NCBI GenBank assembly: GCA_003583745.1
Contig: QXPY01000007.1
Location: 1-64,000 of the forward strand
Source: Rhodocyclales bacterium GT-UBC
GTDB lineage: Bacteria > Pseudomonadota > Gammaproteobacteria > Burkholderiales > Rhodocyclaceae
DNA length: 64,000 nucleotides
Direction of reading: 5' to 3'
In this document: positions 2,240 through 6,630 of the stretch, one piece after another
How positions within the stretch are numbered: the stretch's first letter is position 1
How the letters are laid out: each line of letters starts with the position of its first letter
Program-made: the position numbers and the translations under genes
The notes under the pieces: model-generated
Told to the model about the DNA's origin: nothing
The model's database searches: none
Seen by the model: the letters and a program-made list of their open reading frames with translations, nothing else

Positions 2240-3661
2240 TCAAGGCTTCATCATCAGCGCCCCCAGGCGCCGGACAGCATCCTCGATCTCCGGCGTATGC
2301 GGGTTGCCGCAATTCAAACGCAAGCAATTGCGGTACATGCCACTGGGCGAGAACAATTCGCCGGGCACATAAGCCAGATCATCGGCAATGGCCCGCTCGT
2401 ACATCAGCGTTGCATCGATCTCATCCGGCAATTCCAGCCAGAGTACGCATCCTGCCTGCGGGTGAGTCATCCGGGTGGCGGCCGGAAAATATCGCCCAAC
2501 CGCCGCACGCATGGCATCGATCTGTCGTTCGTACGTGCGCCGGAGGTTGCGCAGATGGCGTTCATAGGCCCCAGACTCGAGATACTCAGCGAGTACATGC
2601 TGCGTAATCGGATTGGTCCCACCGCTGGTAATGGTCTTTTGCAGCGCAATTGCCGAACGATGCCGCCCGGCGGCGACAAAACCGATGCGCAACGAGGGCG
2701 AAAGGCTTTTCGAGAAAGAAGAGCAAAGCATGACGTTCCCCGCCGAATCGAAAGACTTTATCGGCCAGGGACGCTGGGCACCGAAGTGCAGATCGCCATA
2801 AATATCGTCCTCGATCACTGCCACACCGCGCGCCGCCATCAGCGTAGCCAACTGGCGCTTGCGCTCATCGGGCATCACGCTGCCGAGTGGATTGCTGCCA
2901 TTCGGCACAAGCAGGCAGGCCGCAACCTCGCCATGGCGAGTTGCCAGATCGAGCGCCTCGACCGAAATTCCGTTACGGGGGTCGGTCGGTATCTCGAGCG
3001 CTTTCAGACCCAGCGTTTCAAGCAACTGCAGCATCAGATAATAGGCCGGCGACTCAACGGCGACGGTATCCCCTGGCTTGGTTACCGCACGCAAACAAAG
3101 CCCTAGCGCTTCGGTACAGGAATTGGTAATGACAATTTCCTCGACCGCCAAGGGCCCGCCCCAGGCCAGCGAACGACGAACTAGCTGACGCACCAGCGCC
3201 GGTTCGTCCATATTGATATGACTCCCTCCTTCGAGCAGTTTGGGGTGACGACGTGCCACACCAGCATACAGTCGATGCAACGCAGCCACCGGCAGCAACT
3301 CCGGCGCCGGCAAGGCGGCGGCAAGCGGCGGAACGCCCGGCTTCATCCCGGCCTGCAAGACACGAACCAGTCGCTGTGAGATGTCGACCGGCATAGGGGC
3401 TTCCGGCGTAGACCGACTGACCGGCTCGCCCCGTAATGGCATGGGCCTTCGGACAAAATAGCCCGACTGCGGCCGAGCCTCGACCAACCCGCGATCTTCC
3501 AGCTGCCGCAAAGCCTGAACAACAGTCGAAACGGAAAGACGGCGCTCTTCCGAAAGACGACGCACCGATGGCAGACGATCACCATGAGCCAAGACACCGC
3601 CGGCAATCATGCCAGCCAGCTCGGCCGCCAATTTCTCATAACGCAATAATTGCTCGCTCAT
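2240..3661 (-). CDS. MocR-type (GntR + aminotransferase fold) transcriptional regulator
   Basis: A 473-residue PLP-dependent regulator. Residues 1-75 form a GntR winged helix-turn-helix (HGDRLPSVRRLSEERRLS, then VVQALRQLEDRGLV and GYFVRR). The rest is a fold-type-I aminotransferase domain with NPLG, EDDIYGD and SSFSKSLSPSLRIGF motifs; Lys318 should carry the PLP Schiff base. Such proteins normally use PLP adducts of amino acids or amines as effectors. Here the ligand cannot be told from sequence. The gene is divergent from the DUF2917 gene, and repeated ACTGTAT half-sites lie between them, so autoregulation plus control of the neighbour is likely. I see no vitamin B6, GABA or taurine genes nearby that would name it PdxR, GabR or TauR. 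Confidence 0.88.
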   Translation of the reverse strand: MSEQLLRYEKLAAELAGMIAGGVLAHGDRLPSVRRLSEERRLSVSTVVQALRQLEDRGLVEARPQSGYFVRRPMPLRGEPVSRSTPEAPMPVDISQRLVRVLQAGMKPGVPPLAAALPAPELLPVAALHRLYAGVARRHPKLLEGGSHINMDEPALVRQLVRRSLAWGGPLAVEEIVITNSCTEALGLCLRAVTKPGDTVAVESPAYYLMLQLLETLGLKALEIPTDPRNGISVEALDLATRHGEVAACLLVPNGSNPLGSVMPDERKRQLATLMAARGVAVIEDDIYGDLHFGAQRPWPIKSFDSAGNVMLCSSFSKSLSPSLRIGFVAAGRHRSAIALQKTITSGGTNPITQHVLAEYLESGAYERHLRNLRRTYERQIDAMRAAVGRYFPAATRMTHPQAGCVLWLELPDEIDATLMYERAIADDLAYVPGELFSPSGMYRNCLRLNCGNPHTPEIEDAVRRLGALMMKP

Positions 3662-3670
3662 CGATCACCA

Positions 3671-3754
3671 ATACAGTTGGGCCTCAAATCAACCAACACA
3701 GTGATAAAAACCCAAAACTGTATTGATCACAATTTAACTTTACTGAGACTGTAT
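3671..3754. promoter_or_regulatory. Probable MocR operator region with ACTGTAT half-sites
   Basis: Between the divergent MocR and DUF2917 genes lie ACTGTAT at 3717-3723 and again at 3748-3754, a direct repeat 31 bp apart (about three helical turns). An inverted copy ATACAGT lies at 3671-3677, with a partial ACAGT at 3698-3702. MocR regulators commonly bind spaced direct repeats. Assignment to the adjacent regulator is inference. The sites lack the CTGT-N8-ACAG geometry of LexA. Confidence 0.5.
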
Positions 3755-3806
3755 CAGTTTTACTCGCCCACCTAAACTACTTGCACACACATCAGGAGAG
3801 CGAGCC

Positions 3807-4136
3807 ATGAATATCGATCTGGGCCCCGGCGAGTTATGCCTCAGCGACAATCAGCCGATTCGGCTGAAGCGGGCCAAAGGCATCTTCATACATTGCCTGG
3901 AAGGCAATCTCTGGATCACAGTCGAGGGAATCCCAGGCGATACCCACCTGGTGGCAGGGCAAGCCTATCGAATCCAGGGAAATGGCTTGGCGCTGGTTGA
4001 AAGTATCGGCAGCGGCCGACTAAAAATTGTTAGAAACCAAGGCAATTTTCAAATGAGCAGCCTGTTGCAAATCGGCCAACGCATTCGCGCCATGCTATCC
4101 GCCAGCGATGTGAGCGATAACAAGCGCCTCGCCTAA
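3807..4136 (+). CDS. DUF2917 domain protein
   Basis: A 109-residue soluble protein with the DUF2917 signature: a small cupin-like beta domain with IHCLEGNLWITVEGIPGD, the AGQAYRI turn, and LVESIGSGRLKIV. No signal peptide or membrane segment is present. The function of this family is unknown. The start has a clear GGAGAG ribosome site. It is divergent from the MocR regulator and its promoter overlaps the ACTGTAT sites, so it is probably that regulator's target. Its end overlaps the convergent small gene at 4133-4345 by 4 bp. Confidence 0.75.
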   Translation: MNIDLGPGELCLSDNQPIRLKRAKGIFIHCLEGNLWITVEGIPGDTHLVAGQAYRIQGNGLALVESIGSGRLKIVRNQGNFQMSSLLQIGQRIRAMLSASDVSDNKRLA

Positions 4137-4345
4137 TCGAACAGATCGGGCTGCATGGGCAACAGATTGCCCTGCTTGACGGTCAGGCGAACCGGCTGCC
4201 CCTGGCGGCCAATCGCCTCGACCACCATCCGCCCAGCCGAGGCTTCGGCAACAACGCGAACATTACGCATCGAATTCCGGCTGCGCCCTCGATAGGTTGC
4301 CAGCGTACCAGCCGGTGGCAACCAGGCAGATTTGGCGTACGTCAT
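4133..4345 (-). CDS. Small SOS-controlled protein of unknown function with C-terminal QPDLF motif
   Basis: A 70-residue basic protein I do not recognise. The ATG at 4345 has a good ribosome site (GAAAGG, 6 bp away), better than the upstream TTG at 4363. It has a basic middle part (TYRGRSRNSMRNVRVV) and ends in MQPDLFD. QPDLF resembles the QxxLF-type pentapeptide that binds the DNA polymerase sliding clamp. Two perfect LexA boxes lie just upstream, between this gene and the divergent gene at 4499. The boxes support induction by DNA damage; the clamp-binding idea is inference from five residues. No Cys, signal peptide or membrane segment is present. Confidence 0.65.
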   Translation of the reverse strand: MTYAKSAWLPPAGTLATYRGRSRNSMRNVRVVAEASAGRMVVEAIGRQGQPVRLTVKQGNLLPMQPDLFD

Positions 4346-4404
4346 TGAGAGCCTTTCTTGCAACAGGAATAGCCCAAGCCTACCCCGGATAAAAAATTTT
4401 TCGA

Positions 4405-4424
4405 ATACTGTACATCCATACAGT
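4405..4424. promoter_or_regulatory. LexA (SOS) box 1
   Basis: ATACTGTACATCCATACAGT contains the perfect palindromic arms CTGT-N8-ACAG of the enterobacterial/betaproteobacterial LexA operator. It lies 60 bp upstream of the minus-strand gene start at 4345. Confidence 0.85.
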
Positions 4425-4452
4425 TTGTGGTTATTCTACGCCCAAGCAACAA

Positions 4453-4472
4453 ATACTGTTCATTCATACAGT
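4453..4472. promoter_or_regulatory. LexA (SOS) box 2
   Basis: ATACTGTTCATTCATACAGT is a second perfect CTGT-N8-ACAG operator exactly 48 bp from the first. It differs from box 1 in only two positions and lies 26 bp upstream of the plus-strand start at 4499. Tandem boxes usually mean tight repression. Confidence 0.85.
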
Positions 4473-4498
4473 CATCGACTAACCACGGAGCAAGCACC

Positions 4499-4663
4499 AT
4501 GAAACGCCTTCAACAATGGTTCGATCTGATTGCCGGGATTTCACACGATCAGCAGGAACGCCTCGAACGTGCCCACGCCATCTTCAACAGCGCAGGTCCG
4601 GATATCGCCGAATTGCAGATGCCGGCCTGCTGGCGTCGCCGTTCCCGGGTGTATTGCAGCTAA
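4499..4663 (+). CDS. Small (54-residue) protein behind tandem LexA boxes
   Basis: A 54-residue protein, MKRLQQWFDLIAGISHDQQE at its start, then an acidic/helical middle (AHAIFNSAGPDIAELQMP) and a basic Cys-containing tail (CWRRRSRVYCS). I do not recognise it. The ATG at 4499 has a GGAG ribosome site. A longer reading from 4427 would start between the two LexA boxes and include the second one, which is unlikely. Its position implies SOS induction. The macrodomain gene starts 71 bp downstream on the same strand and could be cotranscribed. It may be a small regulator or toxin-like peptide, but nothing in the sequence proves that. Confidence 0.6.
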   Translation: MKRLQQWFDLIAGISHDQQERLERAHAIFNSAGPDIAELQMPACWRRRSRVYCS

Positions 4664-4734
4664 GTCGACGTCCCCTCGGATGGAGCGAGCACCGATGCCC
4701 CGTTATCATTGGACGCATTCCGTCAAGGCAAGCC

Positions 4735-5289
4735 ATGAACACCCCATCGAACTTTCTGGATGGCCGCGTCGTTTTACTGGTCGGTGACATCACCGAGCAA
4801 GATGTAGACGCGGTCGTCAATGCGGCCAACAGCACCTTGCTCGGTGGCGGCGGTGTCGATGGCGCCATCCACCGACAAGGCGGCCCGGCGATCCTTGATG
4901 CCTGTCGCGACCTGCGAGCCGGGCAACTCCACGATGGATTGCCCACCGGAGAGGCGATCATCACGACCGGCGGCAAGCTCCCCGCCCGCCACGTCATCCA
5001 CACCGTCGGCCCGGTCTATGGCCGGGCCGACGGTGGCGAGGCCTCATTGCTTGCCGCCTGTTACCGGAACTCAATTCATCTCGCTGCAAAACACGGCCTG
5101 ACGAGCATCGCCTTTCCGGCAATTTCGACTGGCGTTTATGGCTACCCACCCGCGCTTGCCGCAGCCGTTGCATCGCGCGCAATCGCTGGCGCGCTGCAAG
5201 TGGATTCAAGCATCCAGCAGGTTCGTCTGGTATTTTTCGATCCGCTGCAGATGCAAACCTTCCTGATTCACCAGCAATTCGAGGTGTAA
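4735..5289 (+). CDS. Macrodomain protein, probable O-acetyl-ADP-ribose deacetylase (YmdB-like)
   Basis: A 184-residue single macrodomain, the usual YmdB/MacroD length. It has the VNAANSTLLGGGGVDGAIHRQGG motif (catalytic/ADP-ribose loop 1), the CRDLRAG helix, the HVIHTVGPVY strand and the AFPAISTGVYGYP phosphate loop. Such enzymes hydrolyse O-acetyl-ADP-ribose and remove ADP-ribose from acidic residues of proteins. The ATG at 4735 follows an AAGG ribosome site and gives the family start (LDGRVVLLVGDIT). It lies 71 bp after the SOS-controlled small gene with no terminator visible between, so read-through from the LexA promoter is possible. Confidence 0.9.
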   Translation: MNTPSNFLDGRVVLLVGDITEQDVDAVVNAANSTLLGGGGVDGAIHRQGGPAILDACRDLRAGQLHDGLPTGEAIITTGGKLPARHVIHTVGPVYGRADGGEASLLAACYRNSIHLAAKHGLTSIAFPAISTGVYGYPPALAAAVASRAIAGALQVDSSIQQVRLVFFDPLQMQTFLIHQQFEV

Positions 5290-5394
5290 ATCGGCGCCAG
5301 CCTCTTGCCGGGGAAGCCGCCTGCGGCATAATTCAGGCTTCGGCAAGAAGCGGAGGATAATCCGCCCGCCATCAACTATCTGGAGAAACAGCAT

Positions 5395-5742
5395 ATGAAG
5401 CGTATCGATATCGATGACGCCATACGCTTGCATACAAAATGGCGCCGCCAGTTCCTCAATGCCTTTGCCGGCGGTAACTACGCCGACATGCCCCTATCGG
5501 AACACCGGGGTTGCACGCTATTCAGCACGCTGAAACAAGCCGAGGGCGCCTATGTCGACTCGGCTGATTTTCTGCAATTGATCAGGATGCATGATCGCTT
5601 TCATGCGCTGGCCAACGAAATCGTTGAACTGAGCAACAATGGTCTCGGCGACTCGGCCGACCTGCTACTCCCCGAACTCAACGAAGCCTCGCATCAACTC
5701 GTTGCCGAACTCGACAAACTGCGGGAATTCCGCGACCGCTGA
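5395..5742 (+). CDS. Free-standing CZB (chemoreceptor zinc-binding) domain protein
   Basis: A 115-residue soluble four-helix protein consisting of a CZB domain alone. The expected zinc ligands are present: His13 in HTKW, Cys40 in EHRGCTLF, and His66 and His70 in MHDRFHALANEI, with the conserved Trp16. CZB domains bind zinc very tightly and sense zinc or hypochlorite, usually fused to chemoreceptors or diguanylate cyclases. A stand-alone copy must act through a partner. It has a strong GGAG ribosome site and its own terminator at 5782, so it is monocistronic. The DUF3334 gene that follows resembles chemotaxis phosphatases, which hints at a shared signalling setting. Confidence 0.82.
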   Translation: MKRIDIDDAIRLHTKWRRQFLNAFAGGNYADMPLSEHRGCTLFSTLKQAEGAYVDSADFLQLIRMHDRFHALANEIVELSNNGLGDSADLLLPELNEASHQLVAELDKLREFRDR

Positions 5743-5781
5743 ATTCACCTGAAACGAATCAGGCCTGGCGTCCGACCGAAG

Positions 5782-5812
5782 ATGGTGCAGATTTTTCCTG
5801 CACCATTTTTTC
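5782..5812 (+). terminator. Rho-independent terminator after the CZB gene
   Basis: TGGTGCAG (5783-5790) pairs perfectly with CTGCACCA (5798-5805), followed by six Ts. Confidence 0.88.
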
Positions 5813-5946
5813 GCCTGGCTTATCCAGCACAATCCCCTTCCTTCAGGCACCGGTACATGATACCAACTCCGCGACAGGGCCTGCATCCCAGCTTTGACTG
5901 TGCTATACATATGGTCATTCCTTTTTGCCTGACGCGTTGAATAACC

Positions 5947-6630
5947 ATGACTACACAAGAAGACACCACCATTTACGGCACGGAAGATATTCTGCGCAGC
6001 CTTTGCAATTCAGTCAGCAAAGTACTGTCCGTAGCCAGCCAAAGCCAGATCCACTATTCCGGCATGGTTCAACGCATCACCAAAACCTGCCTGAAGCCCG
6101 ACATTGGCTGCTTTGTATTGTTCGACGGCGGATTCTCCGGCCTGGTTGTCATCAATTTCTCCGCCCAGGCTGCCATGGAGCTCTACGAGAGCTACATGCT
6201 CAGCATGGGGATGGCCAAGGAAGATCTTGCCAGTTCGCACACTTCTGATGAAGTGAGCAATGTCATGGGCGAGTTGATGAACCAGATCGTCGGCGACTTT
6301 ACGGGCAAAGTAGCGCGCGAACTGCAAACCCATATTACGCAGAATCAACCCAAGATGCTGGCACTCAACAAGCAGGTCATGCTGAGCGTTGACACCAACA
6401 TGGACAAACCAGAATCGCGCCGGGTCACCTTCTTCACCGGACGCAACAATATTTTCTACCTTGAAATGGCGATCGACAGGACCGAATTCATCAAGTTGAA
6501 TGATTTTGAGCATACCGAAGCCCCTGATCCTGACGAATTGATCGCCCAGGCCAACACCATACAATCATCGGTGCCCAAAGCAAGTTCTGCTAACGACAAC
6601 GACGACCTGCTCGCCTCTCTCGGCATGTGA
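5947..6630 (+). CDS. DUF3334 family protein (CheX/CheC-like)
   Basis: A 227-residue cytosolic protein of the DUF3334 family, recognised from YSGMVQRITKTCLKPDIGCFVLFDGGFSG near residues 38-66 and the helix DEVSNVMGELMNQIVGDFTGK around 100-120. That helix resembles the E-x2-N active-site helix of CheC/CheX/FliY phosphatases, with Glu and Asn correctly spaced in EVSNVMGE. Residues beyond 185 are acidic and low-complexity, ending in DDLLASLGM. The role is unknown; phospho-response-regulator dephosphorylation is inference from the motif. The ribosome site is weak, and no terminator is visible apart from the hairpin at 6759-6776. Confidence 0.75.
   Translation: MTTQEDTTIYGTEDILRSLCNSVSKVLSVASQSQIHYSGMVQRITKTCLKPDIGCFVLFDGGFSGLVVINFSAQAAMELYESYMLSMGMAKEDLASSHTSDEVSNVMGELMNQIVGDFTGKVARELQTHITQNQPKMLALNKQVMLSVDTNMDKPESRRVTFFTGRNNIFYLEMAIDRTEFIKLNDFEHTEAPDPDELIAQANTIQSSVPKASSANDNDDLLASLGM

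Follow-up and report, generated by a model that had tools for sequence, protein, structure and literature searches.

The window analyzed here, a stretch of 64,000 nucleotides at the start of contig QXPY01000007.1 of Rhodocyclales bacterium GT-UBC, contains a compact locus in which two small genes, termed here p70 and p54 according to the 70 and 54 residues of their products, are transcribed divergently from a gap that harbors two perfect CTGT-N8-ACAG palindromes (Table 1). The gap spans 153 bp between the two start codons (positions 4346-4498, with the starts at 4345 on the minus and 4499 on the plus strand), and the two palindromes, box 1 and box 2, lie 48 bp apart from start to start. On the p54 side, a macrodomain gene follows on the same strand after 71 bp. 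This layout, with its two operators in the divergent gap, one small gene to the left and the other with the macrodomain gene to the right, agrees with the initial annotation of the region. Pfam matches in the vicinity correspond to a DUF2917 protein gene (3807-4136), a CZB (chemoreceptor zinc-binding) match under its cut-off (5395-5742), and a gene for a DUF3334/CheX-like protein (5947-6630).

Table 1. Genes and predicted regulatory elements of the divergent locus, in window coordinates
Feature	Position	Strand	Description
p70 gene	4133..4345	-	70-aa ORF; predicted five-strand Tudor/SH3-like barrel; C-terminal QPDLFD tail
LexA box 1 (CTGTACATCCATACAG)	4408..4423		Perfect CTGT-N8-ACAG match, conserved; left half holds predicted -35 of p54
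Predicted p54 -35, TGTACA	4409..4414	+	Same hexamer at this offset in 46/52 loci
Predicted p54 -10, TATTCT	4432..4437	+	17-bp spacer; TAxxxT in 49/52 loci
Possible leftward p70 -10, TAGAAT	4433..4438	-	Consensus match only, weak
LexA box 2 (CTGTTCATTCATACAG)	4456..4471		~11 bp past estimated p54 transcription start
Possible leftward p70 -35, TGAACA, in box 2	4457-4462	-	Consensus match only, weak
p54 gene	4499..4663	+	54-aa ORF; invariant Q5, conserved P-A-C-W-R-R motif
Macrodomain gene	4735..5289	+	O-acetyl-ADP-ribose deacetylase family; PF01661 and NF001664

The chance expectation for the window is 0.46 CTGT-N8-ACAG sites, and at least two were present in 10 of 100 shuffled versions. Across the genome, the bare pattern was found at 24 sites as compared to 30 for a reversed-pattern control, and since it is therefore not enriched, the case for the boxes rests on their conservation. 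A 20-bp LexA-like pattern, composed with known sites in view and allowing up to three mismatches, retrieved six distinct genome sites (five forward and two reverse matches; zero and one, respectively, for the control), namely, the lexA-imuA region, both boxes of the present locus, an SRAP gene, recA with an imperfect box, and dinB. The identities of lexA, SRAP, recA, and dinB beside these sites were confirmed by Pfam, and imuA was named by eye in the absence of a Pfam match. The box of the SRAP-domain gene is located upstream of it (L016, G000:C1:286546) and that of dinB at the start of the gene (L018, G000:C16:86845). The operator of p54, which overlaps the predicted promoter, is of the same type as the lexA, dinB, and SRAP sites of its own genome.

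A search of named genomes returned 55 p54 loci out of 232 matched stretches. By their labels, these loci belong to the genera Dechloromonas, Azonexus, Azospira, Accumulibacter, Propionivibrio, and Rhodocyclus as well as to metagenome bins that are named more broadly or oddly. A perfect box was identified at most 160 bp upstream of p54 in 51 of them, and two boxes are present in 12. Elsewhere in the same 55 loci there are 5 boxes in a total of 319,523 bp, corresponding to 0.0025 expected per 160-bp window. The four exceptions retain a box with one mismatch (three loci) or with an N9 spacer (L181). In a sample of the family Rhodocyclaceae, a perfect box precedes p54 by at most 400 bp in 21 of 25 matches, and the remaining ones (L043-L046) are among the weakest matches or extra copies. 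Conservation beside homologues, on which the initial annotation had staked its proposal of a LexA-type operator at an undescribed small-protein gene, is thus observed, and it indicates that the boxes are real sites. In some loci (L168, L166, L192, and L179) the p54 box sits within a longer inverted repeat with 11 to 21 more paired bases per side, and in L168 it is flanked on both sides by -10-like hexamers, resembling a symmetric divergent promoter.

The window and the 51 named loci that have a perfect box were compared, 52 loci in total. From the second base of the box onward, 46 of them read TGTACA, and in 49 the hexamer 17 bp further on conforms to TAxxxT; about 0.6% of random hexamers from these loci have at least four matches that include A2 and T6. 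Because TGTACA occurs at a fixed offset inside the box, box 1 covers the predicted -35 element of p54, and owing to this overlap LexA bound there should act as a block to RNA polymerase that is lifted once RecA triggers the cleavage of LexA. LexA repression of p54 is well supported by these comparisons, from which we also infer LexA binding and induction by DNA damage. The region is very probably a genuine, conserved LexA-repressed promoter that has p54 as its core target.

Box 2 characterizes the loci that have p70 linked to p54. In all 40 of these loci box 1 is present, whereas box 2 is perfect in 19, has one mismatch in 16, and is absent in 5. The tandem operators emphasized in the initial annotation exist in the window, with a second element that is characteristic of this group. 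It lies 10-12 bp past the estimated p54 start in the 12 named two-box loci, as compared to about 11 bp in the window, and there it would add a second block to p54 transcription in the p70-linked group. Box 2 may also cover the -35 element of a leftward p70 promoter, the -10 element of which would overlap that of p54, so that p70 would have an interlocked promoter; the case for this arrangement is weak. The gap stretch contains 2 promoter-like sites as compared to 1.6 expected. A leftward -10 element with at least four of six matches was seen in 12 of the 13 two-box loci, but most of this is accounted for by the conservation of the rightward TATTCT. In three p54-linked loci (L079, L081, and L082), one more perfect CTGT-N8-ACAG match precedes the p70 start by 27 bp, possibly by chance.

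Within its own genus, p70 was detected in 60 of 76 genomes (64 matches), and the only positives in a sample of 300 genomes of the order were three members of this genus. While 40 of the 64 loci are divergent to p54, the other 24, which include two poor or partial matches (L104 and L110), have no p54 nearby. None of these 24 unlinked copies possesses a perfect box within 200 bp, and this includes a copy with 80% identity to that of the window (L066); no common partner was seen in eleven of the 24 loci (about 3 kb each). The earlier proposal that the operator serves both small genes consequently stands for p54, and for p70 it stands where the gene is divergent to p54 (40/40) and fails at the unlinked copies (0/24). 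We therefore regard p70 as a divergent neighbor that has probably been brought under the operator by its position. A p70 relative with 50.7% identity is encoded on the conjugative Azospira plasmid pAZI09 (L206, 74223-86435) amid hypothetical, integrase, and helicase genes, and no p70 match was obtained in a phage collection.

The p70 protein was modeled as a five-strand barrel (pLDDT 83.9). Tudor domains head both the Foldseek and the VIA-align lists, with no Foldseek match at an E value of 0.001 or better, and the 50 VIA-align matches listed include no clamp- or repair-specific family, an absence that carries no weight. The modeled barrel would resemble small Tudor-fold proteins such as PSHCP (6nnb, Foldseek rank 30), but this is a match of fold only, for which no sequence relation was found, and p70 is set apart by its P-x-L-F tail at the C-terminus. 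This tail is present in 100 of 101 homologues, mostly as QPDLF or QPGLF ends, and the 101st has QADLF. Peptides that bind the beta clamp are of the QxxLF type, and the p70 tail is by its sequence a candidate clamp-binding end. However, the P and LF positions are more constant in p70 than the Q, since the residue before P-x-L-F is Q in 81, E in 12, P in 5, V in 1, and G in 1 of the 100 cases.

The p54 proteins are a small-protein family that, within the samples searched, was found only in Rhodocyclaceae. Members were identified in 69 of 76 genomes of the own genus and in 23 of 199 genomes of the family sample (25 matches), as well as in 2 of 369 genomes of a class sample, of which one is the own genome and the other gave a weak match over 18 residues. 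Copies in three genomes (G536, G542, and G559) are 53 residues long and end at natural stops. Ratios of mean pN to mean pS, at 0.37 over 231 pairs of 22 chosen p54 sequences and 0.30 over 190 pairs of 20 p70 sequences, are as expected of translated genes. Searches of Pfam, NCBIfam, PHROGs, and PDB sequences assigned neither protein convincingly to a family, and the SulA profile (PF03846) matched neither p54 nor any of the 28 members of sequence set A3. A literature search that covered mostly titles and abstracts, and in which subscription journals were largely outside the coverage, returned no description of the p54 family. A mobile origin is unsupported, as p54 gave no plasmid match and the window copy no PHROG match; one relative reached phrog_36937 with an E value of 0.037 only. 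The divergent neighbors of p54 vary by genus. In two Azospira loci and two further genomes (L168, L166, L028, and L032), the divergent gene encodes a 124-residue protein, the first 80 residues of which have no Pfam match.

The structural model of p54 is of low confidence (pLDDT 70.9, pTM 0.30) and consists of one long helix (residues 2-29) followed by short helices. The amphipathicity of residues 2-14 is marginal, as shuffled sequences reach the observed value at a frequency of 0.117 in the case of the window protein and of 0.014-0.051 in that of nine selected relatives. Residues 2-18 have a mean hydrophobicity of -0.06 and form no hydrophobic span. Judged by hydropathy alone, no transmembrane segment is present in p54, and the hydrophobicity of the N-terminal helix is near zero or below in ten proteins. 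We propose that p54 would most likely be a small helical adaptor and bind a partner protein when DNA is damaged.

Information on its possible role comes from gene neighborhoods in other genomes. In a further genus (g53), the p54 family is present in 11 of 28 genomes with 13 loci, 6 of which have a perfect box. In five of these six, dinB is the next gene after p54, a single box lies upstream of p54, and no perfect one lies between the two genes. The same order is seen in the named loci L193-L195, where DinB was assigned by Pfam in L193; some of the g53 and named loci with this arrangement are probably the same genomes. Another example is that of Accumulibacter sp. 66-26 (L164, p54 at 3001), in which p54 is located between imuA-imuB-like genes and a divergent gene for a DnaE-type polymerase with a box of its own, located at -284 relative to p54. 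Here imuA and imuB were named by eye, imuA via a 49.8% match, and the polymerase gene is called dnaE2 because of this context. These translesion-polymerase neighbors (dinB and imuB-dnaE2) point to damage tolerance, and p54 probably serves as an effector of damage tolerance or of a checkpoint. The neighborhood evidence on function is thin, since the link to dinB is limited to g53 and to named loci that cluster with this genus, and that to dnaE2 to one genome.

The remaining seven of the 13 g53 loci lack a perfect box within 200 bp. In six of these seven (L211, L214, L215, L217, L218, and L219), the next gene downstream on the same strand encodes a WYL-type helix-turn-helix regulator, and the one copy submitted to Pfam (L214) matched WYL with an E value of 1.5e-22. 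A tree was built of 73 distinct p54 sequences; of 93 loci, 89 were readable and 81 had a box with at most one mismatch within 130 bp. The seven box-less rows form one branch with a support of 97/91, next to three boxed rows (L034, L041, and L042); for this tree, the program cautioned that the columns were few, that long branches met, and that the bootstrap had not settled. The existence of this box-less clade (7 of 73 rows) indicates that the p54 family is not wholly part of the SOS response.

The box-less clade bears on a narrower reading, in which p54 would be a damage-induced division inhibitor in the role of SulA. In Caulobacter crescentus, SidA, controlled by LexA, and DidA, controlled by DriD, are small division inhibitors and membrane proteins (PMC4211646), and DriD is described as a WYL-domain factor (PMC12340889). 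With a LexA-box clade and box-less paralogues upstream of a WYL regulator (6/7 in g53), the p54 family offers a notable parallel to this pair of small LexA-linked and WYL-linked proteins, by analogy of description. Furthermore, no SulA was detected in the own and 18 same-genus genomes (0/19, several of them less than 90% complete; an E. coli control was positive), which leaves room for division control. However, SidA and DidA are transmembrane inhibitors of the divisome, whereas p54 lacks a hydrophobic span, and no link to division genes was seen among its neighbors; both the control of a p54 paralogue by the WYL regulator and damage sensing by the latter are conjectural. We consider this reading improbable, while according it more weight than any of the other rival explanations below.

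As for the partner of p54, the translesion-polymerase or replication machinery is our tentative choice among the named candidates and ranks ahead of cell division, which we hold to be rather unlikely; a partner of any other kind is the most plausible of the three options, if still short of probable. A more elaborate scheme would see in p54 a new class of small damage effector, controlled by LexA in the main clade and by the adjacent WYL sensor in the box-less clade, that acts on translesion polymerases or the replisome; in the Dechloromonas/Azonexus group, its partner would be p70, as a Tudor-fold protein that binds the clamp. In its entirety, this scheme is unlikely.

The macrodomain gene is clearly assigned, matching PF01661 with an E value of 8.7e-44 and NF001664 with 234 bits, which exceeds the equivalog cut-off of 200. 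The initial annotation considered the enzyme a candidate part of a damage-response module with p54 and p70 that would be linked to ADP-ribosylation. This notion is suggested by the adjacency of the three genes in the window genome, where the short interval between p54 and the macrodomain gene, like the entire segment from 3600 to 6000, contains no terminator-like site (2.5 expected in shuffles), and read-through into the macrodomain gene is possible there. A macrodomain match, always on the p54 strand, was present in 18 of the 40 linked loci, for which about 1.5 kb of flank was considered, at a distance of about 40-344 bp in 13 and of about 796-876 bp in 5. However, none was found in the fetched flanks of the other 22, and in L162 a reverse-strand gene lies between p54 and the macrodomain gene. 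Among the named loci, the gene accompanies p54 in 5 of 19 that have p70 and in none of the 36 that do not, and it is likewise missing from all 20 out-of-genus loci of the family sample. Membership in an SOS operon was judged by conserved adjacency to p54, and as the macrodomain gene is not conserved beside p54 and unlinked p70 is boxless (0/24), neither its place in the module nor the link to ADP-ribosylation was upheld, and we reject this explanation as highly improbable. The macrodomain gene appears to be at most a read-through passenger and a partial neighbor of p54.

A slightly less probable explanation still, which we reject as well, is that p54 and p70 form a toxin-antitoxin pair under SOS control. 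Two small adjacent genes that share an operator would be in line with such a pair, but they are divergent and form no operon, neither reaches the cut-off of any Pfam family, and they occur apart, as p70 is missing from the fetched flank in 36 of the 55 named p54 loci, and p54 from 24 of the 64 p70 loci. A chance origin of the boxes as hits to a loose pattern, which the genome-wide count of the bare motif might suggest, has a negligible probability, since the box keeps its position in 51 of the 55 loci with a homologue, and is dismissed.

The preferred reading of the locus is that of a LexA-repressed promoter with p54 as its target. Relative to the LexA (SOS) regulon genes lexA, dinB, and SRAP, p54 shares the CTGT-N8-ACAG operator type, of which recA has an imperfect version, but it matches no known family, was found only in Rhodocyclaceae in the samples, and has a place in the regulon that is predicted. 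As far as the sequence comparisons go, p54 genuinely extends the SOS regulon predicted for one bacterial family, and box 2, p70, and the macrodomain gene appear as local additions. This adds a gene to the predicted SOS response of Rhodocyclaceae, a family to which Dechloromonas, Azonexus, Azospira, Accumulibacter, Propionivibrio, and Rhodocyclus belong, and with dinB and imuB-dnaE2 as neighbors and paralogues linked to WYL genes, a possible role in damage tolerance or checkpoint control is open to direct testing.
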